Source of the DNA: Bacteroidota bacterium
GTDB lineage: Bacteria > Bacteroidota > Bacteroidia > M30B66
Reading direction: 5' to 3'
Length of the DNA: 64,000 nt
NCBI GenBank assembly: GCA_027483445.1
Contig: JAIXUS010000045.1
Location: forward strand, 1-64,000
Shown: piece after piece, positions 681 through 38,523 of the stretch
How positions within the stretch are numbered: the first letter of the stretch is position 1
Layout of the letters: each line of letters opens with the position of its first letter
The notes under the pieces: generated by a model
Seen by the model: the letters and a program-made list of their open reading frames with translations, nothing else
What the model was told of the DNA's origin: nothing
The model's database searches: none
Made by a program: the position numbers and the translations under genes

Positions 681-721
681 CGGCCATGCGGCGTCGCTGA
701 TGATGGGCCGTGCCACGCCCG
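681..721 (+). pseudogene. 41-bp scrap matching an internal part of jetD
   Basis: Bases 681-721 match 8794-8834, inside the jetD Toprim-like domain, with 2 mismatches in 41. The similarity stops abruptly on both sides. No open gene is left here. It is either a remnant of an earlier Wadjet copy or a small duplication made during the rearrangement that produced the adjacent 48-bp repeat. Confidence 0.7.
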
Positions 722-752
722 TGGTGCTGCAGCACGGTTTTGTCAAATAGCC

Positions 753-1106
753 TCACAGCGTCTGATTACTAGCGCCCGACACATGTCGGGCCAAATCCAT
801 GCTGTCATGCAGTAGTCGGAGCACGTCAATGTTCTGCCCATTCGACACCTTGAAGACCACAAAGTGGCGACCTTTCCTACCCTCCCGGGCAACATGCAAG
901 GTACGTATTCCAAGCCCGATATCGTCATCTCGGGCCTTGGCCCCAAGTATTTCCGGGCCATCGTGCAAAGCCTCAAGGGCCAGTGTTACGGTCTCCGCGT
1001 AGAACTCCGCCTGGCTACGGCCGAAATTTTCGGCTGTCCATAGAGTGATGTCGAGCAAATCACGCTCTGCTTGCTCAGCCAAACGAACATGCCAAGCCAA
1101 GCTCAT
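753..1106 (-). CDS. RelE/ParE-family toxin
   Basis: The 117-residue protein has the ParE layout: an N-terminal helical pair (LAEQAERDLLDITLWTAENF), a central basic region, and a C-terminal beta segment with RHFVVFKVSNGQNIDVLRLLHDSMD, typical of ParE/RelE toxins. ParE proteins poison DNA gyrase; RelE proteins cut mRNA on the ribosome. The resemblance here is nearer ParE because of the RHH-type partner just upstream and the VLRLLH...D ending. It overlaps the antitoxin stop by 4 bp, so the two are translationally coupled. Toxin class is inferred from sequence only. Confidence 0.85.
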   Translation of the reverse strand: MSLAWHVRLAEQAERDLLDITLWTAENFGRSQAEFYAETVTLALEALHDGPEILGAKARDDDIGLGIRTLHVAREGRKGRHFVVFKVSNGQNIDVLRLLHDSMDLARHVSGASNQTL

Positions 1107-1384
1107 GCAGCCGCGATCGCATTTGCGGTGATCAACTCAAGATGCGAGCGTAAAGACGCCTTGGATTCAAAGGTCTTGAATCGACCCGCCTCAATATCTG
1201 CGAGGCCAACTTGCGTAGCGGAGCGAAGCGCCTCGAGGCGGCATGCATCTTCAGTTTCGCGTTGCTCAACGAGTCGAAGTCCCTCACGCAGCACTTCACT
1301 GGCGTTTTGGTATCTGCCGCTGGTGACCAGCTGTTCAACTAGTATGGCCTGATGGTCTGTAAGAACGACATTGCGTGTGGGCAT
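1103..1384 (-). CDS. ParD-type ribbon-helix-helix antitoxin
   Basis: The 93-residue protein begins MPTRNVVLTDHQAILVEQLV and continues SGRYQNASEVLREGLRLVE, the beta-strand plus two-helix RHH DNA-binding fold of ParD/CopG antitoxins, then a C-terminal toxin-neutralising tail. The start at 1384 is chosen because a strong GAGGAG ribosome site lies just upstream and the RHH strand begins at once. It is the first gene of a parD-parE operon. A perfect 27-bp palindrome 18 bp upstream is the likely autoregulatory operator. Confidence 0.85.
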   Translation of the reverse strand: MPTRNVVLTDHQAILVEQLVTSGRYQNASEVLREGLRLVEQRETEDACRLEALRSATQVGLADIEAGRFKTFESKASLRSHLELITANAIAAA

Positions 1385-1401
1385 TTCAATCTCCTCTATG
1401 G

Positions 1402-1428
1402 GCGCATTGGCATAGTATGCCAATGCGC
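1402..1428. promoter_or_regulatory. perfect 27-bp palindrome, probable ParD operator
   Basis: Two 12-bp arms (GCGCATTGGCAT and its exact complement) are separated by 3 bases. The site sits 18 bp upstream of the antitoxin start codon, where RHH antitoxins bind to repress their own operon. The assignment as operator is an inference from position and symmetry. Confidence 0.7.
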
Positions 1429-1686
1429 TGTGGCGCGTCAATCTACACCTTCTACAAGTTGGCATGCCCGGCCTGCAGGCACTGCCGCGAAGACCATCTA
1501 TAAAAGCTCCCAGTCGATGGCAGCATAATCTCCGCATTGATCCCGGGTCTCGCAACCGTTACATGGACTCGGTCGCCGACTTCTGGCGATAGTTCGGGTA
1601 CTTGCATAACAATGACCGGCACGAACCCATCGGCTTCATTCGCGAATGGTTCTCGGTCAGATCAGTCGACAAGTCCCACAGCATTG
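1429..1686. other. spacer between toxin-antitoxin operon and wbpM remnant
   Basis: No gene with family resemblance is visible in this stretch. It may contain the parDE promoter next to the palindrome. It lies downstream of the wbpM-like remnant's stop codon, and its codon content looks degenerate. Confidence 0.4.
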
Positions 1687-2018
1687 CTACCCCCCAGCAT
1701 CAATCGCCTGCGCCTCCGCTTCCTGCTCCAGATACACCCAGTCGACAATATCGTCACTGGGCGTATACCCCGCGACCAGCTCTTTCATCATCACCCGGAT
1801 GATGCCCACATCGTTGATATTCAGCGCCATGTGCAGAGCCGACAGCTTTTCCTCCAGCGCGGGCCACGCAAGAAATTCCTCATGCGCCTTCATGATCGGC
1901 GGGTGCGAGGTCGGTTGCGGGTTTTCGCCGATGAGCAGTTCCTCGTACAGCTTTTCTCCGGGGCGCAAGCCCGTCACCTCGATCTTGATATCGCCGTTGG
2001 GCTGGGCCTCATCCCCTA
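1687..2018 (-). pseudogene. C-terminal remnant of a WbpM/FlaA1-like nucleotide-sugar dehydratase
   Basis: The minus-strand frame reads DEAQPNGDIKIEVTGLRPGE, then KLYEELLIGENPQPTSHPPI and ends in a Glu-rich tail (IVDWVYLEQEAEAQAID). This is the C-terminus of membrane-bound polysaccharide epimerases/dehydratases of the WbpM/CapD/FlaA1 family, which make UDP-sugar precursors for O-antigen or capsule. The membrane helices and the NAD-binding Rossmann domain are missing; similarity ends near 2018, beside the second 48-bp repeat. It can no longer be functional. It shows that this locus was once a surface-polysaccharide cluster. Confidence 0.8.
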
Positions 2019-2020
2019 CC

Positions 2021-2068
2021 ATCGACCGTTTTCCGCGATAGGCCCTGTTCAACCCGGAACGGAACCGG
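2021..2068. repeat. 48-bp direct repeat, copy 2
   Basis: Same-orientation partner of 633-680 (5 mismatches; last 29 bases identical). It starts immediately after the truncated wbpM-like coding sequence and is followed by about 230 bp of non-coding DNA before the Wadjet operon. Confidence 0.8.
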
Positions 2069-2300
2069 TTGGTAAGCCTCACCGGGCACATACAATATCG
2101 CTCGGGCATGCATGCGTGCCCGGCGGGTTCGGACTACTCCCCCGGCAACGACTGTTGCTTTGCATGACCGGAGTCGTCTCCAGATGAATGCACCAAGCGG
2201 CAGGTAGGAGCATGGATCGTGCAATGACAAACTACATCATCGCGAACACAAGGGGCGGCCCGTCCGGCGTCGATCGTCACAACTCCGGGCCTCGGGTCTC
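2069..2300. promoter_or_regulatory. leader region of the Wadjet operon
   Basis: A non-coding stretch between the repeat and jetA, which must hold the operon promoter. A short inverted repeat (GGGCA...TGCCC) spans 2106-2123. I could not identify a convincing -35/-10 pair or a regulator site. Confidence 0.4.
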
Positions 2301-3755
2301 GTGATGCTCGATTTCGCCACGCTCGACGCACTGCGCGCTCATCATCCAGCGTGGCGCCTGCTGCGCTCGGATCATGCGCCACTGGTGGCCAGCTTCCTGT
2401 ACCGGGTGTTCGTGGCACCCAATGTGCGTGTCATGCCGGCAGCCGACCTGGCCGAGGCCCTCGAGGATGAGCTGTATGCGCTGCGCCTGCATTTGGGCGA
2501 GTCCGCCTTCCCGCGAGCGGCGCTTGATTACCTGAATGACTGGGCCTCGGCTGACAGAGGCTGGCTGCGCAAATTCTACAAGCCCGGCACCGACGAAGCG
2601 CAATTCGATCTGACGCCCGCCACCGAGAAAGCGATTGCCTGGCTGACCCAGCTCGCACAGCGCCAGTTTGTCGGCACCGAATCGCGCCTGCTCACGCTGT
2701 TCGACCTGCTCAAGCAGATGAGCGAGGGCAGCGAGGCAGACCCGGCCAAGCGTCTGGCCGAGTTACAAAAAAAGCGCGACGAGATCGATGCCGAGATGGC
2801 GCGTGTGCAATCGGGCGATGTCGCGCTGCTGGACGATACCGGACTCAAGGATCGCTTCCAGCAGTTCACCCAAGGTGCGCGCGAACTGCTCACCGACTTC
2901 CGCGAAGTGGAGCATAACTTTCGTCAACTTGACCGGCGCGTTCGCGAGCGTATTGCCTTGTGGGAGGGCAGCAAGGGTACGCTGCTGCAGGCAATCATGG
3001 GCGAGCGCGATGCGATTGCCGACTCCGATCAGGGCAAGAGTTTTCGTGCCTTCTGGGATTTTCTTCTGTCCAGCCGCCGCCAGGAGGAACTGACACAGTT
3101 GCTCGAGCGGGTGCTGACATTGCCGGCCGTGGCCGCCCTGCAGCCGGAGGCGCGCATTCGGCGCGTACACTACGACTGGATGGAAGCCGGCGAGCACACG
3201 CAGCGCACAGTGGCCGTGCTGTCGCAGCAGCTGCGCCGCTTTCTCGACGATCAGGCTTGGCTGGAGAACCGCCGGATCATGGACCTGCTGCACGGAATCG
3301 AGAGCAAGGCGCTGGCACTGCGCGGCACGCCACCACCCGGCACCGTGATGGAGGTGTCGCAGCCGGGTACCGATATCGAGTTGCCGATGGAGCGTCCGCT
3401 GTTTACACCCGCCACCCGGCCTGTCATCGCGCGGCTTGTGTTGCAGGCCGGAGATGAGGACATCGACGCTGCTGCCTTGTTCGAGCAGGTGGTAGTGGAC
3501 AAAGCGCGGCTGTCGCGTCATATTCGGCAGGCCTTGCAGGATCGATCACAGGTGACCCTGCATGAATTGCTGAGCCGGCAGCCGCTGCAACAGGGCTTGG
3601 CCGAGCTGGTAGCCTACCTGCAGATTGCCAGCGACGACTTTCGCACCGTGGTGGACGAAGCCATGCCCGAGCCCATTCTCTGGCAGGCGGTAACTGTCGA
3701 TGGCGAGCCCATGACGCGCTCGGCCCGCTTGCCGCGCGTGATCTTCATTCGATGA
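2301..3755 (+). CDS. jetA: Wadjet protein JetA (DUF3375, kleisin-like)
   Basis: The ~484-residue protein opens with LDALRAHHPAWRLLRSDHAP and carries the DUF3375 pattern of Wadjet JetA, the MukF-like kleisin of the complex. N-terminal winged-helix-type segments are followed by a coiled-coil linker around residues 150-240 (LAELQKKRDEIDAEMARVQ) and a C-terminal winged-helix region. JetA bridges the two JetC heads and binds JetB. Wadjet recognises and cuts small circular DNA such as plasmids. The start is GTG 2301 or ATG 2304; both give essentially the same protein. It is the first gene of a tightly packed four-gene operon and overlaps jetB by 4 bp. Confidence 0.95.
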   Translation: MMLDFATLDALRAHHPAWRLLRSDHAPLVASFLYRVFVAPNVRVMPAADLAEALEDELYALRLHLGESAFPRAALDYLNDWASADRGWLRKFYKPGTDEAQFDLTPATEKAIAWLTQLAQRQFVGTESRLLTLFDLLKQMSEGSEADPAKRLAELQKKRDEIDAEMARVQSGDVALLDDTGLKDRFQQFTQGARELLTDFREVEHNFRQLDRRVRERIALWEGSKGTLLQAIMGERDAIADSDQGKSFRAFWDFLLSSRRQEELTQLLERVLTLPAVAALQPEARIRRVHYDWMEAGEHTQRTVAVLSQQLRRFLDDQAWLENRRIMDLLHGIESKALALRGTPPPGTVMEVSQPGTDIELPMERPLFTPATRPVIARLVLQAGDEDIDAAALFEQVVVDKARLSRHIRQALQDRSQVTLHELLSRQPLQQGLAELVAYLQIASDDFRTVVDEAMPEPILWQAVTVDGEPMTRSARLPRVIFIR

Positions 3756-4465
3756 TGGCCACCAATCAGGAGCTGAACCGCATGAACCGGGATGTCGCCG
3801 ACATTGATCCTGCCGCGCCGACCACGCCGACCACGCCAGCGTCCGAGCCCGACCTGTCGGTGCTGCTCATCCACCTGCTGAAGGGCGTGCTGTACCGCGA
3901 CCATGACGGGCGCCAGTGGGCAGCCCTGCTGCAATTGCAGGCTCGTGTGCGCGATTATGCTGGCGTACTGAACCTCGAGCTGGTGCTCGATGAGGTCGAA
4001 GGCTATGCTTTTCTCAAGAGCCGCCCCGACCCGGCACCGGAGGATCCGGCCGCGCCGTTGCCGCGGCTGGTTGCGCGCCGGCCGCTGTCGTTTCCGGTCA
4101 GCCTGCTGCTGGCCCTGCTGCGCAAGAAGCTGCTGGAATTCGATGCGGCTGGCGGCGAGACCCGGCTGGTACTGTCTTTTGACGAGATCGTCGAGCTGGT
4201 GCGCGTCTTCCTGCCGGAGGGGTCGAACGAAGCCAAGCTGATGGATCAGCTCGAAGCCAATGTCAACAAGGTGATCGACCTCGGTTTCCTGCACAAACTC
4301 AAGCCTTCCCCCGGCTTGCCGACGGGCGCGTCGGTCTACGAGGTGCGGCGCATCCTCAAGGCCTTTATCGATGCGCAGTGGCTTGGCGAGTTCGATGCCC
4401 GGCTGGCGGCCTACCAGGCCACGTTGTCGGTCAGCCCGCCGACCGGGGAGGCGAGCAATGAATGA
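3752..4465 (+). CDS. jetB: Wadjet protein JetB (DUF4194, KITE-like)
   Basis: The 237-residue protein matches DUF4194, the MukE/KITE-like subunit that dimerises and binds the JetA kleisin. After a low-complexity N-terminus (runs of Ala, Pro and Thr) come [40 protein letters not shown] and a C-terminal winged-helix segment ([25 protein letters not shown]). Order and coupling (4-bp overlap with jetA, 8-bp overlap with jetC) are those of a canonical type I Wadjet operon. An earlier in-frame ATG would shorten only the disordered N-terminus. Confidence 0.95.
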
Positions 4466-7400
4466 CGCCGTCGCTGCAGGGCTGGATTTTGTGGCCGATG
4501 ACAGCTTGTCGGGTTTTCGGCTGTCCCGGCTGGAGGTGTTCAACTGGGGTACCTTCGACGCCAGGGTCTGGACACTGCAACTGGATGGCAAAACCGGTCT
4601 GCTGACCGGCGACATTGGCTCCGGCAAATCAACGCTGGTCGATGCCATCACCACCTTGTTGGTGCCGGCCCATCGGATTGCCTACAACAAAGCTGCTGGC
4701 GCAGACAGCAAGGAGCGCAGCCTGCGCTCTTATGTGCTCGGGCATTACAAGTCCGAGCGCAACGAGCTTACGGGCTCGGCCCGCCCGGTCTCGTTACGCG
4801 AAGCCGGCAGTTACAGCGTGATCCTCGGCGTCTTCCGCAATGCCGGTTACGACCAGACCATCAGCCTTGCGCAGGTTTTCTGGATGAAGGACGCCCACGG
4901 CCAGCCTGCCCGCTTTTTCGTCGGCGCCGAGCGCGACCTGTCGATCGCGTCGAACTTCGCCAACTTCGGCGCCGACATGACTACCCTGCGCAAAAAATTG
5001 CGCGGGCTCGGCGCCGACTTGCATGACAGCTTTCCGCCGTATGCAGCCTGGTTCCGCCGCCGCTTTGGTATCGAGAACGACCAGGCACTGGAACTTTTCC
5101 ACCAGACCGTATCGATGAAGTCCGTGGGCAACCTCACCGACTTCGTACGCAGCCATATGCTCGAGCCCTTCGACGTGGCGTCGCGCATCGCGGCCCTGAT
5201 CGGGCATTTCGACGACCTCGACCGCGCACACCAAGCTGTCCTGAAGGCTCAGCAGCAAGTCGAGCAGCTCGTACCGCTGGTGGAAGATTGCAACTGCCAC
5301 CGCGCGCTGTCCGTCGAAGTAGAGCAGTTGCGCCACTGCCGTGACGGCCTGCGCGGCTATTTCGGCCAACTGAAACTGGCGTTGCTGGACAAGCGGCTCG
5401 AGCTGGTCGAGGACGAGTGGAACAAGGCTGATGCGCAGGTCGGGCGCCTTGATGTAGCGCGCGACGAGCAAGTCGCCCGCGTGGACGAACTCAAGCAGGC
5501 CATCCACGACAACGGCGGTGACCGGCTCGAGCGTCTCGCCGCCGAGATCCGCAGGAAAACGCAGCAAAGGGATGCGCGTCAGGTCAAGGCCGCGCGCTAC
5601 CATGGCTTTGCTACCCGGCTGGGCGAACTTGTGCCCACAGATCCGGACACGTTTGCTTCTCAGCGCAAGCGCATCGAACAGGCGCGCGACGACATCGGTC
5701 ATCGCGAGGCTGACCTGCAGAACCTCCTGACCGAGCGCGCCGTGAGTCTGCGCCAGGGAAAGCAGGAGCACGAGCAATTGACATCGCAGATCGACAGCCT
5801 CAAGCAGCGTCTCAGCAACATCGATGACCCCCAGATCCGTATCCGCACTGCCCTGTGCGCGGCACTGAGGATCGACGAGCGCGACATGCCGTTTGTCGGC
5901 GAGCTGATCGAAGTACGTGATGACGAGCGCGACTGGGAAGGTGCCGCCGAACGTCTATTGCGCGGCTTCGCTCTGTCGCTGTTGGTACCCGAAGCACATT
6001 ACAAGGCAGTGGCCGAATGGGTAGATGGAAATCACCTGCAAGGACGCCTCGTCTACTTTCATGTGCGTGCTCGCAAATCGGCCGAGCTGCCTGATTTGCA
6101 TCGCGACTCGCTGGTTCGCAAGCTGTCGATCAGGCCCGACTCTGCGCACTACGACTGGCTCGAGCGCGAACTTGCCCACCGCTTCGACGTCGCCTGCTGT
6201 GTAACCCAGGAACAATTCCGCCGCGAAAACCGCGCCATCACGCGCGCTGGTCAGATCAAGGACCCGAGTGGCCGTCATGAAAAAGATGACCGGCACCGGA
6301 TCGACAACCGCAGTCACTATGTGCTGGGCTGGGACAACAGCGGCAAGATCGCAGCACTGGATGCCAGCCGCCGGCAACTCGAAGCACGCCTCGGCGACCT
6401 GGCTGATCATCTGGGCCGGCTCGAAGCCGAGCGCCGGAACCTGCAAGAGCGCCTGGATGCGCTGACGCGGCTAGAGGAATTCACGAGCTTTGATGATATC
6501 GATGTGGCCAGTCTCGCTGCCGAGATCGCCATGCTCGAGGCCGAGCGCCGGCAGCTCGAGCAGGCCTCCGACACGTTACGGCAACTGAACGAGCGACTGC
6601 AGGCAGAGCAGCAATCGCTACGCGAGATCGAAGCGAACGGGCAGGCAGCACGTGAACGTCGCGCCAAAGCCGAGCAACGCCGTGCCGATGCACAGGCGTT
6701 ACGCGAGCAGACACTGCAGCGGATCGACGAGAGCGGGCTTGATGCCGGTTTGTCCGGCATGCTGCAGGCACTGTGCGTTCAGGCTCTGGGCGAGCATCAG
6801 CTGAGTGTGGAGTCCTGCGACAACCGCGAGCAGGAAGTTCGCGCGTGGCTGCAGGCCCGGATCGATGCCGAAGACCACAAACTGAAGCGCCTCGCGGAAA
6901 AGATCATCAAGTCGATGGCCGCGTTCAAGAACTCCTTCAAGCTCGAAACCGCCGAGATCGATGCGAGCCTGGAAGCCGCCTTTGAATACGAGGGACTGCT
7001 GGCGCGACTTCATCGCGATGACTTGCCGCGCTTCGTCGATCAATTCAAGGAGCTACTGAACGTCAATACCATCAACGAGATTGCAGCATTCAACGCCCAG
7101 CTGGCGCGGGAGCGGGAAACCATCCGCGAACGGATCACCCAGATCAATCAATCGCTGAGCAGCATCGACTACAACCCGGGACGTTACATCGTTCTCGAAT
7201 CCCAAACCAGTTCGGATGCCGAGATCCGCGACTTCCAGCAAGACCTGCGCGCCTGTACCGAGGGCGCAGTGACAGGCTCGGACGATGCACAGTACTCGGA
7301 AGCGAAGTTCTTGCAGGTGAAAGCCATCATCGACCGCTTCCGCGGCAGAGAGGGGTTGTCGGAGCAGGACAGACGCTGGAGTGCCAAGGTAACGGACGTG

Positions 7401-7847
7401 CGCAACTGGTTTCTGTTTGCGGCCAGCGAGCGTTGGCGCGAGGATGACACCGAGTATGACCACTACTCCGACTCCGGGGGCAAATCTGGTGGCCAGAAAG
7501 AAAAGCTGGCCTACACCATCCTGGCCGCCAGCCTTGCCTACCAGTTTGGCCTCGAGTGGGGTGCGGTGCGCTCCCGTTCTTTCCGCTTCGTTGTCATTGA
7601 CGAAGCCTTCGGGCGCGGTTCGGACGAGTCGGCTCAGTACGGGCTGCGCCTGTTCCGGCAGCTGAATTTGCAACTGCTGATCGTCACACCGCTGCAGAAG
7701 ATTCATGTCATCGAGCCCTTCGTCGCCAGCGTGGGCTTCGTGCATAACGACGGCGGACGGGCGTCGAAGTTGCGCAACCTGTCGATTGACGAATACCGGA
7801 CACAGAAGGAGAAATCCGCGCCGACTGGCGAGGGCCTGCAGCGATGA
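4458..7847 (+). CDS. jetC: Wadjet protein JetC (SMC/MukB-like ATPase)
   Basis: The 1129-residue protein is the SMC-type motor of Wadjet. Walker A is GDIGSGKST at about residue 50, followed by two long coiled-coil arms rich in Glu/Arg/Gln around a hinge near residue 500. The C-terminal head holds the ABC signature [11 protein letters not shown] (about residue 1004) and Walker [12 protein letters not shown] (about 1042). The ATG at 4458 is chosen because it overlaps the jetB stop (ATGAATGA); the upstream in-frame extension lies wholly inside jetB. JetC extrudes DNA loops as an ATP-driven dimer of dimers with JetA and JetB. All key ATPase motifs are intact, so the system looks functional. Confidence 0.96.
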
Positions 7848-9025
7848 CCTGGAGCAGCCCGGCCGATCTGAAGTCGCAACTGATGCGGCTTTGGGAGCGC
7901 GGCGACCTGATGCGCGATGCGCTCTCGGGCCAGACACGTTTTCCGTTACGGCTGACACTGCGCTGCCCGAACTCGGCGGACCTCACCGAGCGTTTCGTTG
8001 CTGTGCGCGCCTGGGTGAGCGAATTGACGTTATTGCCTGCCGTACGGCTCGAGTGGCAGGAGGTAAGACATCGCGTGCAAGGTGTGCAGCGGCTGCCGGC
8101 GGCAGCCTGGGTCGATACGGTGGACGAGGCGCTGCGCTGGATCGGCAAGCGTGCCGAGTGGCAGCGCTGGTGCGCGCTCGCCGACATGACACGGCGACAG
8201 TGCCCTGCGCTGTTGCCGTGGCTGCAGCGACGGCCCCTGCAGGCATTGGCGCTCGAAGCCGCATGGCCGCGCCTGCTGGCTGTCGTGGACTGGCGGCTGC
8301 GCCATCCGCAGCCGGACATCTATCTGCGCCAGATCGACCTGCCCGGGGTGCACACCAAGTTCATCGAAAGCCATCGAGCGGTCTTGAGTGAACTGCTCGA
8401 TCTGTCCTTGCCCGGCGGGCCGACGGACCCGCAGCAGACCGGTATCGCGCGCTTTGCTGTTCGCTATGGTTTTAGAGACAAGCCACTGCGCATCCGTCTG
8501 CGCGCGCTCGATCCCGATATCAGGCTTCTTGTCGGCGTTGATCATCCGGACATGACACTCGACGCTGCCAGCTTTGGTCGACTTGCGGTAGACGTGAAGC
8601 GGGTCGTCATCACCGAGAACGAAACCAATTTTCTTGCCCTGCCACCGCTGCCCGGCACCCTTGGCCTCTTCGGTGCGGGCTACGGATGGGAGGCACTAGC
8701 GCAGGCGCACTGGCTGGAGCGCTGCGCCCTGCATTATTGGGGAGATATCGATACCCACGGCTTTGCCATCCTCGACCAGCTGCGTGCGCATTTCGGCCAT
8801 GCGGCGTCGCTGATGATGGACCGTGCCACGCTCGAGGCGCACAGGGATTTCTGGGGCATGGAAGACCAACCGTACACGCGTGACCTGCATCGCTTGACGC
8901 CTGATGAGCAAGATTTGTACAACGACCTGCGCGACAACCGTTTCGGCAAGCAGCTGCGCTTGGAGCAGGAGCAGTTGGGTTTTGGGTGGGTGCGGGAAAG
9001 CCTGGGGCGGTTGGTGGGGGCGTGA
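7844..9025 (+). CDS. jetD: Wadjet nuclease JetD (DUF3322-DUF2220, Toprim-like)
   Basis: The 393-residue protein has an N-terminal DUF3322 DNA-binding region and a C-terminal DUF2220 Toprim-like nuclease domain related to topoisomerase VI subunit A. The metal-binding acidic residues are visible: [11 protein letters not shown] (Glu at about residue 257) and [12 protein letters not shown] (Asp residues near 301-303). JetD cleaves DNA after JetABC has extruded a small circle. It overlaps jetC by 4 bp (ATGA) and closes the operon. A 41-bp piece of this gene recurs at 681-721. Confidence 0.95.
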
Positions 9026-10940: not shown

Positions 10941-11444
10941 TCAGCTCGCCTTGCGCAAGCTGGCCGGTGCGACACGCACGGCCACGGGCTTGCTCAGAAT
11001 CTCGATCAGCACCATGACCCGACGCTCGCCATCGGCCATTTGGTAAATACCTTCGATGCCGGCAAACGGCGCCTCCGTAAGGCGCACACGCTCACCTGGC
11101 TTGAACAACCGCTCCGGCTCAGTCTGAACCGACGCTTCCTGTGTTCGCAACAGTTCGATCAGGCCATCATCCACCCGCGCGGGTTCGATCCCGAAGCTGA
11201 CCAGACGGCTGACGCCCTTGGTCGAACGGACGGGCGCCCAGCTCTTGGCTGTGTCGTCCATGCCCAGCCGGATGAACAGGTAGCGTGGAAACAGGGGCTC
11301 GTCCGCCACCGTCAGCAATCCTTGCCGGAGCTTTTCTAATGGGAGGGTCGGGAGGTAGCACTGATAACCCTGCCGGTGGAGGTTTTCCAGGGCGCACTTT
11401 TCCTGCCTGGGCTTGGTATGAACGAGATACCAGTGCATCGCCAC
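10941..11444 (-). CDS. RfaH/NusG-paralogue transcription elongation factor
   Basis: The 167-residue protein has the NusG N-terminal (NGN) domain: WYLVHTKPRQEKCALENLHR at the start and LFPRYLFIRL near residue 57, both typical of RfaH-like specialised NusGs. The C-terminal KOW region reads FKPGERVRLTEAPFAGIEGI. RfaH binds paused RNA polymerase at ops sites and prevents early termination, usually in long polysaccharide or other surface operons. It could be the regulator of the ruined polysaccharide locus to its left or part of the prophage to its right. An intergenic gap of 89 bp separates it from the parB-like gene upstream. I found no ops-like site placed to support either option. Confidence 0.85.
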   Translation of the reverse strand: MAMHWYLVHTKPRQEKCALENLHRQGYQCYLPTLPLEKLRQGLLTVADEPLFPRYLFIRLGMDDTAKSWAPVRSTKGVSRLVSFGIEPARVDDGLIELLRTQEASVQTEPERLFKPGERVRLTEAPFAGIEGIYQMADGERRVMVLIEILSKPVAVRVAPASLRKAS

Positions 11445-11533: not shown

Positions 11534-12655
11534 CTATTCGGTGGCGGCGTCGCCTCCCAGCGCTTGGGGTTCGTTGTCTTTTTCGGAATCGGAAAGCGCG
11601 CTTTCTGCAGCGGGCTGGTCATAGCTGTCAGGGTCGTCTTCGAATTCGCCATCGGCCTCGAGTTGCTGCTGCACGGCCTCTTCCATGCTGACCGTGTTCA
11701 CCACCAATTCGAAATGCTCGAGAATTTCGGGCTCGTGCCGGGTGATGTAGCTTTTGACGGCGTCGTTGCCGAGCAGCTTGGTCAGGTAGCCCTTGGCCAC
11801 CACCAGATTGAGCAGGTCGGACCCGTAGTTTTCTTCAGCATCCTTGTACTGGGTCTGGACCTGGCTCATTTCCTTTTCCAGTTTGACGATCTGCTCGATG
11901 GGCGCCAGTTGCTTGTCGCGCTCAGTGGGTTTGAAGTCGGTACGCTGCTCTGGTGGCGTAGCCTTAAGCAAGGCATCGGCGTGCGCCACGGTGATGGTGT
12001 TGCTTGCCACCATCAACTCCACCGCCTCCACCTGCCGGGCGGCTTTCATGTTGCGCAGCACCCGGGTCACGTCCGGGGTGAACTGTTTGTCCTGCAACCG
12101 GGCGATCGCGTCCGGACAGATGCCTTCGAGCAGGTTGATGCGCCGGTTGATGGAGCTCAGGTTCACCCCAAAGGCCCGGGCCAGGCGCTCCTTGCTCACC
12201 CCGCGATCGATGGCGCGGCGGATCATGTAGTGCTCCTGGATGGTGGAGAGCCGGTTTATGCGGTGGTTGTAGGTGTAGGTCTCGTCGTCCTTGGCCAGCA
12301 GGCAGGGGGCTTCGTGCACACCGAGGTCCTTCAGTGCCAGGACGCGCAAATGGCCATCGAGCAAAATGAATTCCGACTTGGAAGGGTCATGCTGGATCAC
12401 CGACAGGGGTTCGATCAGGCCAATTTCATGGATGGACGAGACGACTTGCTTGTACTTGCGGGTGCTCATCACTCCGTCCGGGATGCGTTTACTGGGCATC
12501 AGGGTGTCGAGCGGGATTTGATAAGTCTCCAGATCGAATCCGAGCAAGGTGTTAAGCGGGGCCTTCGGCAGGTCGGGACCGTCTTCCGCGTCCGACTGGT
12601 TGATGCCGGGGTACATCGGTGTGATGTTGGGTTGGGCGTTCATGGCGGGGTTCAT
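11534..12655 (-). CDS. ParB/RepB-like DNA-binding protein 1
   Basis: The 373-residue protein carries a ParB-type N-terminal domain (SFDLETYQIPLDTLMPSK-like start, then SKSEFILLDGHLRVLALKDLG and HRINRLSTIQEHYMIRRAID) and a helix-turn-helix (VSKERLARAFGVNLSSINRRI). It ends in an acidic tail. It resembles the RepB C-terminal-domain partition proteins often found next to phage-type serine recombinases. The start at 12655 overlaps the stop of the upstream parB-like gene (ATGA). No parA ATPase gene is visible nearby, so a role in classical partition is doubtful; transcriptional or recombination control is possible. Confidence 0.8.
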   Translation of the reverse strand: MNPAMNAQPNITPMYPGINQSDAEDGPDLPKAPLNTLLGFDLETYQIPLDTLMPSKRIPDGVMSTRKYKQVVSSIHEIGLIEPLSVIQHDPSKSEFILLDGHLRVLALKDLGVHEAPCLLAKDDETYTYNHRINRLSTIQEHYMIRRAIDRGVSKERLARAFGVNLSSINRRINLLEGICPDAIARLQDKQFTPDVTRVLRNMKAARQVEAVELMVASNTITVAHADALLKATPPEQRTDFKPTERDKQLAPIEQIVKLEKEMSQVQTQYKDAEENYGSDLLNLVVAKGYLTKLLGNDAVKSYITRHEPEILEHFELVVNTVSMEEAVQQQLEADGEFEDDPDSYDQPAAESALSDSEKDNEPQALGGDAATE

Positions 12656-13551
12656 GCGGTGGCTCCATTTAGGTTGTCGATGCGCTCAGCGAGGTACTTG
12701 GGCAGGGTGTCCAGCCCCTCGGCACGCAGCAGGTTGACGAAATGCTCGTCGGCAAACAGCTTCTTTAACCCTTGCACCACCAGCAGTAGGCGCTGGTGCG
12801 CGTGCTCGGCCTTGAGGACCATCTTGCGTTGCCGCTCGACTTCCCGCTGATAGGTGCGCACCAGGCTGTAGCTGGAAGTGGGCGGTTTGATCTGACCGGG
12901 GTTGGGTGAGCCGGGGCCATGCTCCTGCCGCTTCTCCACCAGGCGCTTGGTCTCGATGATCTGGCGCCGGTTGAGCTGGCCGTTCTCATAGGCTTCCTGG
13001 AGCATTCCGCCCAGACTTTCGTCGTCATCCTTGGCGCGGGCGATTTCAAGGGCAGTGGTCAGCGGGATGGCGCCGCGCTGCACGCCCTCGATCAGGCGCT
13101 CCTCCCCCTGATCCAGCAGGAAGACAATGTCCTTGACGTACTTGGGCGAGAGGCCGGTTTTATGGATGATGGTGTCGGCGTCATAGCCGCGCTTGCGCAG
13201 GATTTCGATGTCGGCCAGGATTTCCAATGGCCGGTGGCCACGCCGAGCAATGTTCTCTGCCAGGCTCATGATGAAGGCGTCTTCATCGCTGACATCGACA
13301 ACCAGGGCGGGGATGTGAGTTTCTCCCAGGATGCGGAAAGCGTTCAGGCGTCCCTCGCCGCAGACCAGCAGGTATTTCGGCTGGCCATCGTCGCCAGGGC
13401 GCTCGGTGACGGTGATGGGCTTCTTCAAGCCGATCGATTTGATGTTCTCGACGATCTCCTCGAAGATTTTCATATTGCGTTCGCGGGAGTTGAGGATTTC
13501 AACCCGCACGATCGGGATCAGGGTGACGGTTTCGGGGGTGCCGGTTAGCAT
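12652..13551 (-). CDS. ParB/RepB-like DNA-binding protein 2
   Basis: This 299-residue ParB/RepB/Spo0J-type protein has the ParB box in the form SLAENIARRGHRPLEILADI, an upstream sulfiredoxin-like fold segment (LLVCGEGRLNAFRILGETHI) and a helix-turn-helix (DTIIHKTGLSPKYVKDIVFL). A helical C-terminal region follows, as in RepB proteins. A GGAGG ribosome site precedes the ATG at 13551. It is translationally coupled to the second parB-like gene and lies 84 bp downstream of the serine recombinase. It shares the ParB fold with its partner but is clearly diverged from it. Confidence 0.85.
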   Translation of the reverse strand: MLTGTPETVTLIPIVRVEILNSRERNMKIFEEIVENIKSIGLKKPITVTERPGDDGQPKYLLVCGEGRLNAFRILGETHIPALVVDVSDEDAFIMSLAENIARRGHRPLEILADIEILRKRGYDADTIIHKTGLSPKYVKDIVFLLDQGEERLIEGVQRGAIPLTTALEIARAKDDDESLGGMLQEAYENGQLNRRQIIETKRLVEKRQEHGPGSPNPGQIKPPTSSYSLVRTYQREVERQRKMVLKAEHAHQRLLLVVQGLKKLFADEHFVNLLRAEGLDTLPKYLAERIDNLNGATA

Positions 13552-13635: not shown

Positions 13636-15210
13636 TCAGATGCGCCGCTGCAGGCGCTCCCGCTCGGACATGCCGTAGAAGAAGTTCAGGTCGTCAAAGC
13701 GGAAGCATTCGATCTCGGCACTGTTTCTGGCCGTGACCTGCAGTTCCTGGTTGGGCAGGTCGAGGCGTGGTAACAGGTAGTAGTCCAGTTCGGAGGCATT
13801 GCCGGGATCAAGCCGTACCGCCACCGTGATGTCCGGGTGGTAGCGACTGGGGTCAAAGCGGATGCGCCAACGCTGCAGGCCATTGGGCAATTGCTGGCAA
13901 CGTGCGAGCACCAGGCTGATGACCAACTCCTGGTTCAGATGCAGCAGGTCGGTTTGCGGGTCCCGCCAAATCTCGCCACCCAATTCGGCAATGGTGTGCT
14001 GGGTGCGTTCGACGATTTCTGGGTGGAGTTGTCGCAGGCGCCGGTTGATTTCGAGGAATTCAAGATCACGCCCCGGGCGGAAACCGACCAATTCATAGGC
14101 CTTGCTCAAACTGCCGAAGCGCTGGATGTAAGTCGCAGCACTCGGCAGTGCCGGCGCCTCGTTGATGATCAGGCCCGAGAGCGTGCCGCGTTCCTGGTAG
14201 AGCAAGCGTAGGTGTTCGAGCAGTTCTTCATCGGAGAAACGCCGACTGCGATCAGTCAGGATTTCCTGCGCGGCCATGAAGGTGTCGAGGGGCACGATGC
14301 CTTCGAACGCACCTTGCTTGCGGATCCACATCTGCGGCGGGTTGTCGACGTGTTTTTTCTTGAGCTTAAAAGAGTGGCGGTTGTAGACGTTGTTGCCGAT
14401 GTACTTCTCGTTGGTCAGCACCTGGCGCACCGTGCTGTAGGTCCAGGGGCAATCACGATCGGTGTAGATGGGAATATCGTTGAGCCGCTGGGCGATTTCA
14501 GACAGCGGCAGGTCGTCTTCGACCAACCAGCGGTAGATCTGATGGACTATGGCGACTTCCTGCGCGGGGCCAGGCACCAGGATCACCCGGTCGGTTTGCA
14601 GGCTTTTGTGCTCGCCGGGTTTCAAGGTGGCTTTGATGGCGCCGCTCTGGTCGATCAGCACCCGGCGCAACCCAAAACCGGCAGGGCCACCCTGGCGAAA
14701 GCCAAGCTCGATCAGGCGACATTGGCCTGCAAACACCTTGGCCGAGAGTTCGCGGCTGTACTCGCCGGCCATGGCGCGTTTGACGCCTTTGACGATGGTG
14801 GAAACGGGAGAGCCATCGTTCTCAAACTGCTCGGCGACGTAGGCGACGCTGATGCCCTTGCGCTTGCAGATGTATTCGTAATAGGCCGACTCGTCCGCAT
14901 CCTGAAACCGACCCCAGCGACTGACGTCGTAGACTAGGATCAGCTTGAAATCGGTGTTCCCCGATTCGACATCGGCGATCAGCTTTTGCAGGGAGGCGCG
15001 GCCACCGATGGAGAGTCCACTCTTGCCGTCATCGGCATAGGTGCGCACGATCTCAATCCCGCGCTTGTCGGCGTACTCGCGGATCTTGTCGGCCTGATTG
15101 AGGGTCGAGTACTGCTGATGTTCGGTGGACATGCGCACGTATTGCGCGGCACGGAAGGTTTGGTTTTCATTCAGGGTCATGATCTCTCGGAGCTCTTTTG
15201 TTTCGGACAT
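13636..15210 (-). CDS. large serine recombinase, probable prophage integrase
   Basis: The ~524-residue protein has the resolvase/invertase catalytic domain with nucleophile Ser28 in YVRMSTEHQ, the conserved YADDGKSGLSIGGR and LVYDVSRWGR motifs, then a 'Recombinase' DNA-binding domain (NEKYIGNNVYNRHSFKLKKK) and a long C-terminal extension. Such enzymes integrate and excise phages and other mobile elements. The start at 15210 is one of three in-frame options (15228, 15210, 15180); all keep the catalytic domain. It is the only integrase-type gene of the left prophage outside the RIT element. Confidence 0.9.
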   Translation of the reverse strand: MSETKELREIMTLNENQTFRAAQYVRMSTEHQQYSTLNQADKIREYADKRGIEIVRTYADDGKSGLSIGGRASLQKLIADVESGNTDFKLILVYDVSRWGRFQDADESAYYEYICKRKGISVAYVAEQFENDGSPVSTIVKGVKRAMAGEYSRELSAKVFAGQCRLIELGFRQGGPAGFGLRRVLIDQSGAIKATLKPGEHKSLQTDRVILVPGPAQEVAIVHQIYRWLVEDDLPLSEIAQRLNDIPIYTDRDCPWTYSTVRQVLTNEKYIGNNVYNRHSFKLKKKHVDNPPQMWIRKQGAFEGIVPLDTFMAAQEILTDRSRRFSDEELLEHLRLLYQERGTLSGLIINEAPALPSAATYIQRFGSLSKAYELVGFRPGRDLEFLEINRRLRQLHPEIVERTQHTIAELGGEIWRDPQTDLLHLNQELVISLVLARCQQLPNGLQRWRIRFDPSRYHPDITVAVRLDPGNASELDYYLLPRLDLPNQELQVTARNSAEIECFRFDDLNFFYGMSERERLQRRI

Positions 15211-15310
15211 GTTTGCTTCGAAGGCCACGGCGTATCAAGGTCATGTGGGGTAGATCGTCGACATAAAGTGACGCTGGCGGGCAGGTTGAAGGAAGGCGCT
15301 GCGTCATGGC

Positions 15311-16216
15311 TCACCCCACCTTGCGCAGACTGGCAGCGTCGATCGTCATGGCCACAGGTTTGCTCAAGAGATCGAGCAGCACCATGGCGCGGCCCTCGGC
15401 ATCGTTCATCTGGTAGATCGCTTCCAGCCCAGCAAAGGCGCCTTCGGTGATGCGCACGTTGTCGCCATGGGCGAACAAGGTGGTCGGCGTGGCCTGCTGG
15501 GCGGTCTCGCGCTCACGCAGGGTGGCGATCAAGGCGTCATCGACCCGCGCGGGCCGGCTGCCGAAGCACACCAACTCGCTCACGCCGACGGTGGAGCGGA
15601 TCGGGCTCCAGCTCTGCCCCTTCCCTGTGGTGTCGAGCCGCACGAACAGGTAGCGCGCAAACATCGGTTCTTGCACGACGGTCGATTTGCGGCGGACGAG
15701 TTTTTCGCTGGCGAACAGGGGGAGATAGGACTCGTAGCCCTGACGTGCCAGGTGGGTGAGCGCCACCGATTCCTGCCGGGGTTTGCTGCGCACGAGGAAC
15801 CAGACCATCGTGCTGGGCGAGGGGTGACTGGTGGGTTTTAGCGGCGTAACAGGAACTGAATCGGTTTCTACCAGCATGGGCTGCGGCACCAGCTTGGGTG
15901 AAATCGAAGGCGGTGGTGACTTGGGTTTCGGAGCCGGCACTGGAGCAGGCAATCCATCTCCTGGTGGCGGCGAATGCAGTAACTGCGCCAAGGCGCGAAT
16001 CAGCGGCAGCGGCCGTGCCGTGGCCAGCACCTGCTCGACCAGGGCCAGCATTTCACTGCGCTCGTACGCCTGGATGTCATCGAGCTGGTAGCCGACCTGC
16101 AGGCCGGTCTGGGTGATGGCCAGACCCTCGTCGGCATCGCGCAGTTTGTAAAGCGCCTGCACAGGCAGGCCCAGACGCTCGGCGGCTTGTGGCGAGGTCA
16201 GCAGGCGCGGGGCCAT
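15311..16216 (-). CDS. HTH domain fused to an RfaH/NusG-like elongation factor
   Basis: The ~301-residue protein has three parts. Residues ~1-65 form a MerR/excisionase-like helix-turn-helix (TSPQAAERLGLPVQALYKLR). A Pro/Ser-rich linker covers ~70-135. The last ~165 residues are a complete NusG-type NGN-KOW unit (MVWFLVRSKPRQESVALTHL, MFARYLFVRLD, FAHGDNVRITEGAFAGLEAI). The last part is about half identical by eye to the rfaH-like gene at 10941-11444. It lies downstream of the holin and after a strong terminator, as an independent unit. A DNA-binding domain on a NusG paralogue suggests sequence-specific recruitment to phage promoters, possibly late-gene antitermination; this is inference. Confidence 0.8.
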   Translation of the reverse strand: MAPRLLTSPQAAERLGLPVQALYKLRDADEGLAITQTGLQVGYQLDDIQAYERSEMLALVEQVLATARPLPLIRALAQLLHSPPPGDGLPAPVPAPKPKSPPPSISPKLVPQPMLVETDSVPVTPLKPTSHPSPSTMVWFLVRSKPRQESVALTHLARQGYESYLPLFASEKLVRRKSTVVQEPMFARYLFVRLDTTGKGQSWSPIRSTVGVSELVCFGSRPARVDDALIATLRERETAQQATPTTLFAHGDNVRITEGAFAGLEAIYQMNDAEGRAMVLLDLLSKPVAMTIDAASLRKVG

Positions 16217-16319
16217 GGGGCGTGGGTCAAGGTGAACATGCCTCCATGAAGGCGCTGTTCGCGAACAAAGCCAAGGCCATCTGGTGAGAGATGTGCATAT
16301 TTCTGGCGCACAAACGACA

Positions 16320-16375
16320 AAAGACCCCGCCTTCATCGGCCACCTAAAAGGGAAGCGGATGAAGACGGGGTCTTT
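16320..16375 (-). terminator. hairpin terminator after the late operon
   Basis: The arms 16320-16337 and 16358-16375 (18 bp, one mismatch) enclose a 20-base loop. On the minus strand the hairpin is followed by CTTTTGTCG. It lies 48 bp beyond the holin stop codon and separates the structural operon from the HTH-NusG gene. The A/T runs on both sides would allow bidirectional function. Confidence 0.8.
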
Positions 16376-20586: not shown

Positions 20587-21132
20587 TCAGCGCGTCAGGC
20601 CCGGGAAGGTTTTGGCGGTATAGCTGATGCCCGGAAACGCCTTGTTGCCCACATCCAGCATGCGGGCACGCCCTGTCACCCGAAAGATGTCGGCTTCGAC
20701 CTCGGTCAGCACCAGGTGGATAGGTGGGTCCATCTGTGGCCCTTCCAAATCGGTGGACAGGTACGGCCGGTAAGTCACCTCGATCACCGACTGCGACTCG
20801 GCGGCCGCATCCAGGTGGCGCACGATTTCGCGCGACACGTTGTCGAGCGTCACAGTGATTTCCGGCACCGGCATGGTGTCCACTGGCGGCAAATCCAGCT
20901 CAAAGCCCATCGCCACGAACTGCACGCGCTCGCCGGCTTGCAGCGGCGCTTGCGATTCCAGCCGAGCCCACAGATCACCGGTGTCGCGCACCACGCGAAT
21001 GGCGACCTGCTGACCGTCTTCATCGACAAACGCAGGATGGCGCAACTCCAGCGTGTGCAGGATGATCTGCTCCGATGGCGCGCTGGCGTAGGCTTCCTTG
21101 ATGGCCTCAGACAATGCGGCGTTCGGCATCAA
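20587..21132 (-). CDS. DUF1833 phage tail protein
   Basis: The 181-residue protein has features typical of DUF1833: LHTLELRHPAFVDEDGQQVA, an aromatic/acidic middle, and YRPYLSTDLEGPQMDPPIHL. DUF1833 proteins stand next to the C40 peptidase in lambda-like tail clusters, in a place comparable to gpL. Its exact structural role is unknown. It is coupled by a 4-bp overlap to the upstream RCC1-repeat gene. Confidence 0.8.
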   Translation of the reverse strand: MMPNAALSEAIKEAYASAPSEQIILHTLELRHPAFVDEDGQQVAIRVVRDTGDLWARLESQAPLQAGERVQFVAMGFELDLPPVDTMPVPEITVTLDNVSREIVRHLDAAAESQSVIEVTYRPYLSTDLEGPQMDPPIHLVLTEVEADIFRVTGRARMLDVGNKAFPGISYTAKTFPGLTR

Positions 21133-22775
21133 AGGATCACCGGGTAAGGCACGTAGCTGGTTTCGCTGTCGTCCTCGGGCAACTGCGCCTCTCCGGCATA
21201 GCCGCTAGCCAGCACCTGACCATCGTCGAGCAGAAACACCAGTCCCTGCTCGGAGCTCGAACCGTAGGACGAGAGGTCCATCACGCGACGCTGCGCAATG
21301 CGCACCAGTTCCACACTGCTGCGGTTGGTGGCATCGCCCAGTCCCAGCGCCCCGTTGCCGTTGTAACCCCAGGCGTAGACGGTGCCGTTTTCCAATAAAG
21401 CAGCGCCATAGTTGTAGGAGCCGGTGCCGCCATGCACGGCTTTGACTACGGTATTGCCTACCGGCACTTGCACAAAGTTGCCGCTGTTGCTGCCGTTGGC
21501 GTTGCCCCAGTACGCCCCCGCACCGCAGGCCCACAAGGTCTTGTCGGTTTTCTTGAGGTAGGTGAGCGGATAGTCGTAACTGCCGGTGTAAGCATCGGCC
21601 ACGTTGGTGGCCACCTGTACCGGGGTGAACTGGTTGGCAAGATTACCGTTTCCCAATTGCCCGTAGTCGTTGGTGCCCCAGGCGTGCAGGGCACCGGTGC
21701 TGTCCAGTGCGAAAGCATGAACATAAGCCCCGAACACCTTGACGATGGTTTTGCCGGCGAGACTGCCACCCGCACGCGGCATGGCGACGTTGGCCTGGTT
21801 GCTGCTGCCATCTCCCAGCTGCCCGTTGCCGTTGTATCCCCACGAGTACAGGGTGCCATCGTTCTTGACGGCGTAATGGGCGGTGTAACGCTCCCGCCCG
21901 GCGGCAATCTGGGTGATGCCGGCAAGCACCGGCAACTGCACAAAGTTGTTGCGCTGGGTGGTGTCGCCCAAGCCCAGCTGCCCGTAACCGTTGTAGCCGC
22001 AAGCATGCACAGTGCCATCGCTGCACAGGACCAAGGTGCTGTTGTAACCCTCAGTGCCGCAGTTCAGTGCCAGCTGGATCACGGTTTTGCCGGCAATTGA
22101 GTTGCTGGCATTGGCACTCATGTTGTACGGCACCGGCTGGTTGGTCGTGCTGCCAGTACCGAGTTGGCCGTAACCGTTATAGCCCCAGCCCCATAGCTGC
22201 CCGTTCTTGTCGATGCAGTAGCCGTTGGTGTCCTGGCTGTAATAGAGCTTGGCCGCCCCTGGAAACCCGGGCGGAAACGCGGTACGCGCCGGGTACGAGC
22301 GCGCATAGGTGGTGCCATCGCCCAGCTTCCAGTTGGCGTTGCGTCCCCAGGCACGGATGCTGCCATCGGTCATGATGAGGCCGAACTGGCGGTAGCTATT
22401 GGGCTGTGTGTTACTGGCGTTCTCCGGCAACTTCTGCGCCTTGGTGCCGGAGCGCACATCGGGTGTCGCCCACACCGGTACGCCCTGTGCACCCATAGTA
22501 AGCACCTGCCCGGCTTGGCCGACGGGCAAGGCGACCAGCTGGTTGCCATCGCAGTAGATGACCTCCCCCGGCAGGCTCGAGACCCCTTGGGTGCCTTGCG
22601 CAAACAGATCCCAGGCAGGGGAGTTGGCGTGCGGCGCCACGCCCGTGGTCGCATCGGTACGGCATACAAAGCTATCGCCGTTGTGGCCGACTACATCTTG
22701 GCGGGCGTAGGTGGCGCTGGCGTCATATGCACCGCGCCAGGTAAAGGCAATCTTGCCCAGAGAAACGGTTCCCAT
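21129..22775 (-). CDS. RCC1-repeat (beta-propeller) tail fibre protein A
   Basis: The 548-residue protein has a ~100-residue N-terminal part with a carbohydrate-binding-module-like piece (WRGAYDASATYARQDVVGHN), then repeated RCC1/ATS1 units recognisable by WGYNGYGQLGTGST, YGQLGLGD, WGYNGNGQLGDGS, WGTNDYGQLGNG and WGYNGNGALGLGD. Seven such blades would form a propeller, a surface well suited to binding a receptor. It lies between the fibre N-terminal gene and DUF1833, in the host-recognition module. The right prophage has an unrelated module here. Confidence 0.85.
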   Translation of the reverse strand: MGTVSLGKIAFTWRGAYDASATYARQDVVGHNGDSFVCRTDATTGVAPHANSPAWDLFAQGTQGVSSLPGEVIYCDGNQLVALPVGQAGQVLTMGAQGVPVWATPDVRSGTKAQKLPENASNTQPNSYRQFGLIMTDGSIRAWGRNANWKLGDGTTYARSYPARTAFPPGFPGAAKLYYSQDTNGYCIDKNGQLWGWGYNGYGQLGTGSTTNQPVPYNMSANASNSIAGKTVIQLALNCGTEGYNSTLVLCSDGTVHACGYNGYGQLGLGDTTQRNNFVQLPVLAGITQIAAGRERYTAHYAVKNDGTLYSWGYNGNGQLGDGSSNQANVAMPRAGGSLAGKTIVKVFGAYVHAFALDSTGALHAWGTNDYGQLGNGNLANQFTPVQVATNVADAYTGSYDYPLTYLKKTDKTLWACGAGAYWGNANGSNSGNFVQVPVGNTVVKAVHGGTGSYNYGAALLENGTVYAWGYNGNGALGLGDATNRSSVELVRIAQRRVMDLSSYGSSSEQGLVFLLDDGQVLASGYAGEAQLPEDDSETSYVPYPVIL

Positions 22776-22807
22776 GAACAGTCCTTGAAGAAATGGAAGA
22801 TCGGAAT

Positions 22808-24478
22808 TCAGAACAGGATCGGTGACGGCGCGAAACGATGGTCGCTGTCGTCGTCACCCGTTTGGCCGTAGCTGCCGTAACCGGTCGACATCACCTGACC
22901 ATCGCGGGTAAGGAAGTGATAGGCACCGTAGTGGTATTCGCCACCTTCGCCGCAGCCCATCACGCCCGAGCGCGAGAAATCGACAATCGGCCTGTCTACC
23001 AGCACGAAACGGTTGGGCGAGTTGCCCGAATCGGCGTAGCCGTTGCCGCATTGACCGGCACCACCCATGCCCCAGCCCACCGCCTTGCCGTCAGCTCGCA
23101 GTGCCATGGCCGATGAGCCATAACTGCTGCCGTACATGCGCAGCTTGGTCACTTGCGTCAGAAAGTCGCCGCCGACGGTGGTCCACTGCGTGCGATTGCC
23201 ATTACCACCCCCCAGGTTGTATCCGTCGTAACCTGTATGGCGCACGGTGCCATCCTGCATCAGCACGAGCGTTCGCCCATAACCACCGGACACCGCGTAA
23301 GCATCCGCCACGCCATCGAGTACTTTGTACGGGAACAGCGCATGGCCGGAGAAGATGGAGCCGGTGTACCCGGTGCCCCAGATGCCAGAGGTCTGACCTT
23401 CGTCATGGCCCCAACGGAAAAGCGCGCCATCTTCGAGGATGACGCCATAACTGCGGTAGTACTGACTGCCCGCCACCCAATGAGCATCGGACTCGGAGCA
23501 GAACACTTTCTTGACCCGCTTTTCTGTGCCCCAAGGCATCCAGAGGCGATGCGTGGTTTGGTCGCTGCCGAAGCCACAGGAATTCGACTCCCCGGCAACC
23601 CATAATTTGCCAGCAGTGTCGATCAGGTAACTGGCGGCATAGGTACCGCCTGACAGGAACACCGCTTTGATCGGGGTGTCTGCAGTGAATGGTACAAGTT
23701 GCGGCGTGGTCACCACTGCAGTGTGGCCCAAGCCTAGGCTGCCCTGCTGGTTGGCGCCCCAAACATAGACCCGACCTTGTGCGTCCAGGCATGCGAGCAT
23801 GCGGTAGCCATACCAGTCATGGCCAGTGACCATCTGTTTGACCACCGCGTTGGCCGGCAATTGGCCGACCCCATTGACACGTCGGGGTACCGGATTGGCG
23901 CTCGCCGTCGGTGAGCTATAGCCGCTGTTGCCCCCGGCGTGCCAAAGTCCACCCTCAGCATCGATAAAGTAGGTGTCATCCCACAAGCAGGTCACCGACA
24001 CGACGCGGGGCGTGCCGGGTGGGAACGCCACCCGCGCGGGGAAGGTGCGGCCAATGTCGCCGGTATTGCCAGTCCCTTGCTGCCCGGAGAGCGCGCGCCC
24101 CCACGCGCGTACCGAGCCGTCGTTCATGACGGCGGCCATGAAGTAGTTCGAGCTGTGATAGTCCGCAGCCGCGCGGTCTGTGTTCATCAAGGCTGTGGCA
24201 ATCGTGCCGTTGCGGTCGGCCATGAAACGAAATTCCACACCATCCGCGCCATTGGCGTGGAGCACCATGCTGCCGATGCCGCCCACAGACACGCCACCGG
24301 TCAGCAAATGCCCTTTGAGCACAGCGTCTTGCTGGCCGAGTGCAAACGGCTGCGGCTGCCCGTGGCGGATCACCCAGGCCCCACCCTCCTTGAACACCAC
24401 ATCACCATCGCGGTAACTGAGATACGGGGAGTAGATGCCACACCAGCGATAACCGAGCGCTGAGATATCGAGATTCAC
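22808..24478 (-). CDS. RCC1-repeat (beta-propeller) tail fibre protein B
   Basis: The 556-residue protein is a diverged relative of the adjacent RCC1 protein. Degenerate repeats include AWGRALSGQQGTGNTGDIGR, WGANQQGSLGLGHT, WGHDEGQTSGIWGTG and GWGMGGAGQCGNGYADS, ending in TGYGSYGQTGDDDSDHRFAP. Both proteins share the closing pattern (S/T-G-Y-x-x-x-x-Q-x-x-x-DDS...PxPIL). This suggests tandem duplication followed by divergence. It overlaps the upstream fibre-base gene by 4 bp. Confidence 0.8.
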   Translation of the reverse strand: MNLDISALGYRWCGIYSPYLSYRDGDVVFKEGGAWVIRHGQPQPFALGQQDAVLKGHLLTGGVSVGGIGSMVLHANGADGVEFRFMADRNGTIATALMNTDRAAADYHSSNYFMAAVMNDGSVRAWGRALSGQQGTGNTGDIGRTFPARVAFPPGTPRVVSVTCLWDDTYFIDAEGGLWHAGGNSGYSSPTASANPVPRRVNGVGQLPANAVVKQMVTGHDWYGYRMLACLDAQGRVYVWGANQQGSLGLGHTAVVTTPQLVPFTADTPIKAVFLSGGTYAASYLIDTAGKLWVAGESNSCGFGSDQTTHRLWMPWGTEKRVKKVFCSESDAHWVAGSQYYRSYGVILEDGALFRWGHDEGQTSGIWGTGYTGSIFSGHALFPYKVLDGVADAYAVSGGYGRTLVLMQDGTVRHTGYDGYNLGGGNGNRTQWTTVGGDFLTQVTKLRMYGSSYGSSAMALRADGKAVGWGMGGAGQCGNGYADSGNSPNRFVLVDRPIVDFSRSGVMGCGEGGEYHYGAYHFLTRDGQVMSTGYGSYGQTGDDDSDHRFAPSPILF

Positions 24479-38368: not shown

Positions 38369-38523
38369 GTGTTGTTCAACTCAGTGCAATTGGGTGGCCT
38401 CCTCGATGTATGGGTCAGGCAAAGGCGAGTGAATCACCCCGGATTAAAAAGCGCTTGGCTTCTGTGGCGCACAGCGCGTGAATGCGGATGTCGATTGACA
38501 AGCAACCCACCAAGGAGCCCCAC

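Follow-up and report, generated by a model that had tools for sequence, protein, structure and literature searches.

The NusG paralogues known so far are directed to their genes by paused RNA polymerase together with the non-template strand or the nascent RNA. The protein described here, encoded by a gene of 301 aa on the minus strand (15311-16216) of the window, i.e., the whole stretch of 64,000 nucleotides that was analyzed, carries a predicted winged helix-turn-helix (HTH) in front of a NusG-type elongation factor. The closest solved relatives of its NusG part are E. coli RfaH (phmmer E value of 3e-25; PDB 2oug, 5ond, and 8phk), with which it shares the NGN-KOW type (TIGR01955), residues F56, E48, and R138, and the Rho-contact loop. 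In comparison with RfaH, the fusion adds the N-terminal winged HTH and a linker, has a hydrophobic equivalent of R73, and is phage encoded. RfaH-like genes in phages are already known (PHROG 6386 and annotated phage RfaH), and the transcription antiterminator family PHROG 6386 (phage RfaH/NusG) matches the NGN-KOW part with an E value of 1.2e-19; however, this match begins at residue 134 and leaves the HTH and the linker uncovered. RdfS (8dgl) and other HTH_17-type excisionases share the predicted HTH fold and a weak sequence match with the fusion, but those are small stand-alone proteins, whereas here the HTH is joined to an elongation factor. The lambda Q antiterminator offers a functional analogy only, no relation being claimed: the fusion would likewise bind DNA and load on RNA polymerase for long transcripts. 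Our literature searches found no report of a NusG/RfaH fusion with an HTH or other DNA-binding domain, and the phages that carry this conserved arrangement may steer an elongation factor to their own genes in a manner not described before.

Domain make-up and conservation of the fusion

The coordinates that the sequence-only reading had given for the open reading frame proved exact, and the combination it had proposed, an excisionase-like HTH, a Pro-rich linker, and a complete NGN-KOW unit in one frame, was borne out by NusG/RfaH and HTH profiles, AlphaFold2, and 19 distinct homologues. The NGN domain (residues 137 to 236; 15509-15808) scores 66.6 bits against Pfam NusG (cut-off of 22.2), and the KOW domain (residues 244 to 301; 15314-15487) remains sub-threshold in Pfam (14 versus 22.3). 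Together they match the NCBIfam RfaH family TIGR01955 with 162.3 bits (cut-off of 144.5) over profile positions 1 to 158 of 159, and the structure search aligned the model of the fusion with E. coli RfaH (8pen_P) over 101 residues with a Z score of 14.1 and an rmsd of 1.7. By sequence and predicted fold, the NGN-KOW part is of the RfaH type. The model, built from a 51-row alignment (an 11-row alignment gave a mean pLDDT of 42 and was set aside), has a pLDDT of ~80 to 94 in the NGN and folds the KOW as a beta barrel; regarding the KOW alpha-to-beta switch, it displays the beta form only.

The structure-search lists were filled by NusG-type domains, so that the HTH fold of the N-terminal domain was hardly probed there. 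AlphaFold2 predicts a winged HTH for residues 1 to 66 (16019-16216; pLDDT of ~77), with helices at residues 8 to 15 and 19 to 27, a two-strand wing (34 to 37 and 40 to 44), and a long helix (45 to 66). Pfam HTH_17 is below its cut-off on the window copy (20.9 versus 27 bits) and is a weak match in all 11 fusion members scanned, 10 of which also match the PHROG 66 excisionase weakly. The top natural PDB match of the HTH profile is the recombination directionality factor RdfS (8dgl; E value of 0.0047), and the sole better PDB row is 8vd6, named cap repeat, without a single passing stretch. A conserved segment follows (residues 67 to 85; 15962-16018; consensus RPLPLIRAMAQLL), the end of which is modeled with low confidence; this helical segment adjoining the HTH is about as conserved as the HTH itself. 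It leads into the Pro-rich linker (residues 86 to 136; 15809-15961), which varies in sequence and length; the model is disordered over residues 79 to 134, with a pLDDT below 50 in the linker.

The same fusion, sought elsewhere, was found as 19 distinct full-length proteins, many of them in phage elements. The loci gathered comprise, besides the window gene, a second copy on the same contig, five viral contigs, four betaproteobacterial genomes, L051 (a further genome copy that looks identical to L041), and a distant second type (type II, L309 to L317, 41 to 48% identity). Eleven of the distinct fusions are of type I and eight of type II; L308, which runs off the contig end, was left outside the count. 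L045, from the isolate genome of Tepidicella baoligensis B18-50, has a module that looks intact. Identity in the HTH ranges from 41 to 95% among the 19 fusions, and the recognition helices differ between type I and type II. All the complete HTH homologues found carry NGN-KOW. The pN/pS ratios of the HTH, NGN, KOW, and linker are 0.16, 0.155, 0.18, and 0.67 in type I and 0.17, 0.10, 0.11, and 0.58 in type II. In these alignments, the HTH and the NusG parts are under comparable purifying selection and the linker alone drifts; the conservation of the HTH in both types thus argues that the fusion is not due to chance.

RfaH determinants and phylogeny

We compared the fusions with the published determinants of RfaH (PMC5995543 and PMC7593976). 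In the 13 fusions tabulated, the polymerase-binding F56 is kept, as are E48 and R138 among the autoinhibition residues, with I or V at I93 and a conservative change of F130 to Y, and the Rho-contact loop is RfaH-like. Among the ops-reading residues, the fusions retain K10 and R23, have H or N at H20, and lack R73. This last position is V, I, or L in all 19 fusions and K or R in 16 of the 19 unfused relatives examined; the sister short RfaH in these elements carries K there. In E. coli RfaH, replacing R73 by alanine strongly compromises recruitment at ops (PMC5995543). Because this tested residue is absent, the fusion is, on its sequence, not a canonical ops-reading RfaH, and it probably works like RfaH at RNA polymerase. 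A search of the window for ops elements gave 98 loose matches versus 87 expected by chance.

In the NGN-KOW tree, a single clade (100/100) unites all the fusions with three HTH-less members (L053, L054, and L069). L069 is a plasmid copy beside capsule genes and has L at position 73; the neighbors of L053 look by sequence like polysaccharide export genes (judged without a family-library search). In the flanking DNA of L053 and L054 (loci L070 and L071), no window phage protein has a match except the NusG ones. The placement of L053 inside the fused subclade suggests that it lost its HTH. Since position 73 is not basic in the three HTH-less clade members either, the loss of R73 follows the clade and not strictly the HTH. 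Hence, the suggestion that a built-in DNA-binding domain goes with a different mode of recruitment is only partly sustained: the lost R73 equivalent fits it, but this loss is common to the HTH-less members of the clade.

Genomic setting, terminator, and promoter-like motif

The gene directly downstream of the fusion encodes a large serine recombinase with Resolvase and Recombinase domains (13636-15228), followed on the same minus strand by two ParB/RepB-like proteins recognized by profile matches, A (12652-13551) and B (11534-12655), and by a second RfaH-type NusG paralogue of 167 aa without HTH (10941-11444; TIGR01955, 168.4 bits), the one with K at the R73 position. On the other side lies the late operon, delimited by gene matches from the terminase small subunit to the holin (16423-38368, minus strand), which is a candidate target. 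As far as the contigs reach, the type I order is tail J, DUF6127, holin, HTH-NusG, serine recombinase, ParB A, ParB B, and short RfaH; the exceptions are L046, without a holin or tail J match, and L047, with tail J and without a DUF6127 or holin match. The order is mostly the same in type II, with extra DNA ahead of the recombinase in L179/L315 and L310; the holin match is absent in several, and L310 has a tape-measure gene just upstream. In the long phage contigs G805, G807, and G810, no NusG gene was seen in the parts read, which end before or close to that region. The proximity to the serine recombinase, put forward as a point to check, is thus general: the recombinase adjoins the fusion gene wherever the contig covers that side, with extra DNA between them in a few elements.

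Several features of the element were observed beside this arrangement. Two different ParB/RepB-like genes are adjacent (11534-13551 in the window) in every element reaching that far, and no ParA was noticed. Two tandem RCC1-repeat proteins occupy the tail-fiber position (21129-24478), and Wadjet-type defense genes (DUF3375/JetA, SMC-like JetC, and JetD) lie near the prophage end (2301-9025).

The contig (C67), filed in a Bacteroidota assembly, is probably a mis-binned betaproteobacterial contig, because its G+C content (58 to 62%) differs from that of stretches of C37 (45%) and C46 (43%) from the same assembly, because the 395 genomes of the assembly's class searched gave no match besides the assembly itself, and because Burkholderiales do give matches.

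The late operon ends in an intrinsic terminator (16320-16375, minus strand; 18-bp stem, -47.6 kcal/mol, z score of -8.2), which separates the holin from HTH-NusG. No other terminator on the minus strand of the 27-kb unit comes near it in strength, and a strong hairpin stands at the equivalent place in the type II copies folded. Just downstream of it, upstream of the fusion gene, lies a promoter-like motif (16246-16275, minus strand), CTTGGCTT-N10-CAGCGC-CTTCAT (TTGGCT, 17 bp, CTTCAT). The window holds two matches versus 0.11 expected, the second (38454-38483, plus strand) preceding the DUF6900/DUF3489 genes in the divergent region next to the terminase gene. Apart from small changes, the motif ahead of the fusion gene is kept in 19 of 19 fusions of both types, which have the layout of terminator, motif, and HTH-NusG in common. 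A scan of viral contigs with the motif itself as the query, CTTGGCTT-N10-CAGCGCGTTCAT, found at least 178 distinct copies; among the matches listed, most have an ATG ~59 to 66 bases past the motif start, and there are up to 7 copies per contig (e.g., L184, L200, and L211).

Other identities considered for this region were set aside. The palindrome TGTTCGCGAACA, considered as an operator, falls within the motif's variable spacer, and L047 and L311 do not retain it. The frame of the conserved upstream block relative to the gene differs between type I and type II, which speaks against a coding sequence, and in the stretches searched Rfam recognized nothing in the motif or in this block, which leaves the block without a match to a known RNA.

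As suggested by the motif, the fusion gene is probably transcribed from a promoter of its own. The gene therefore need not be a late gene, and its position after the terminator, which had been taken to fit a late-gene regulator, says little on late expression; of this proposal, the terminator is real.

Proposed targeting and rival readings

We propose, with a probability that we would place just short of even, that the fusion is a phage-specific anti-pausing/antitermination factor of the RfaH type, for which the HTH supplies or sharpens the targeting. The proposal is based on the RfaH equivalog score and fold, the kept RfaH residues, the lost R73, the layout of terminator, motif, and HTH-NusG common to both types, and an HTH that is under purifying selection, fused in all the complete homologues found, and present in phage elements. 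The sub-threshold Pfam score of the HTH and the R73 loss shared with HTH-less clade members count against it. In this model, the HTH would bind a site in the phage element, and the linker of ~50 residues would let the bound HTH deliver the NGN to an RNA polymerase at work on a phage operon nearby. Once there, the NGN would bind the clamp helices, resulting in less pausing and less Rho-dependent termination; the KOW, like that of RfaH, may also recruit ribosomes. The likely targets would be the 22-kb late operon or terminator readthrough into the fusion's own operon (serine recombinase, ParB A, ParB B, and RfaH), and the sister RfaH, with its basic residue kept at position 73, would probably read a different signal. 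The main action of RfaH-family proteins is on pausing and Rho; it would be unusual for one to affect an intrinsic terminator of this strength.

A more specific version, which we consider possible but hold more loosely, is that the factor is tethered to duplex DNA: the HTH would dock at a phage site and deliver the NGN to an RNA polymerase as it starts or passes by, and this would take the place of non-template-strand reading. Our search of the element found no target site for the HTH. The block upstream of the terminase gene was considered for this role and rejected: it looks alike in type I and in a type II element (L102), though the recognition helices differ, which is mild counter-evidence. 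If tethering holds true, the NusG scaffold would have been put to use for a Q-like way of loading. The conserved HTH-bearing family, with an HTH-less sister RfaH in the same element, offers a natural comparison for target acquisition, and it suggests a class of regulators within a widespread family of beta-proteobacterial prophages.

It is rather unlikely, though worth weighing first among the alternatives, that the fusion regulates its own maintenance/integration operon instead of the late genes, with the HTH acting near its own motif and NGN-KOW keeping the polymerase going downstream. The promoter-like motif shared with the DUF6900/DUF3489 genes, the constancy of the serine recombinase and ParB neighbors, and the strong terminator that sets the fusion gene apart from the late operon would all fit such autoregulation, but an operon of only ~5 kb is short for a dedicated processivity factor, and the operator sought was not found.

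We find it unlikely that the HTH serves the adjacent serine recombinase, or its regulation, as an Xis/RdfS-like recombination directionality factor, with NGN-KOW coupling this to transcription. The rank of RdfS among the PDB matches, the weak PHROG 66 matches, and the usual position of the recombinase gene directly downstream point in this direction. However, the partners of RdfS and Xis are tyrosine recombinases and the one here is a serine recombinase, the HTH family also has many plain transcription regulators, the attachment site was not found here, and the RfaH part would be left unexplained.

The weak HTH scores and the similar conservation of the adjoining helix could also mean that the HTH no longer binds DNA and mediates dimerization or binding of another phage protein, NGN-KOW then being a generic high-affinity RfaH-like factor or a competitor of the host NusG; the conservation of the winged-HTH pattern with two distinct types of recognition helix speaks against this, and we regard it as quite unlikely. 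Finally, it is very improbable that the fusion is an artefact of two separate proteins, for which the Met at the NusG junction of the window copy (M137) could provide a start: this Met is missing in L041, L044, L045, and all the type II proteins, so that a separate NusG start is not conserved, and a single open frame runs through the fusion in 19 of 19, so that, as far as sequence tells, neither of the two grounds named beforehand for abandoning the fusion (a separate NusG start or an HTH frame that is not conserved) holds.

To return to the proposed RfaH-type targeting factor, the window also contains, from 43.4 kb onward, a related prophage whose late operon is similar; near its end, we found neither a NusG-domain gene nor a match to a serine recombinase or ParB, so that such a factor is not universally needed.

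This second prophage of the same late-operon family lies on the plus strand (43380-64000, continuing in L010 over 1-6100) and has holin- and lysozyme-like frames after tail J. Between the two prophages, which are arranged head to head, are three consecutive tyrosine recombinase genes with overlaps of a few bases (40177-43329), and a gene 98% identical to the first of the trio adjoins the same element end in the viral contig locus L181.
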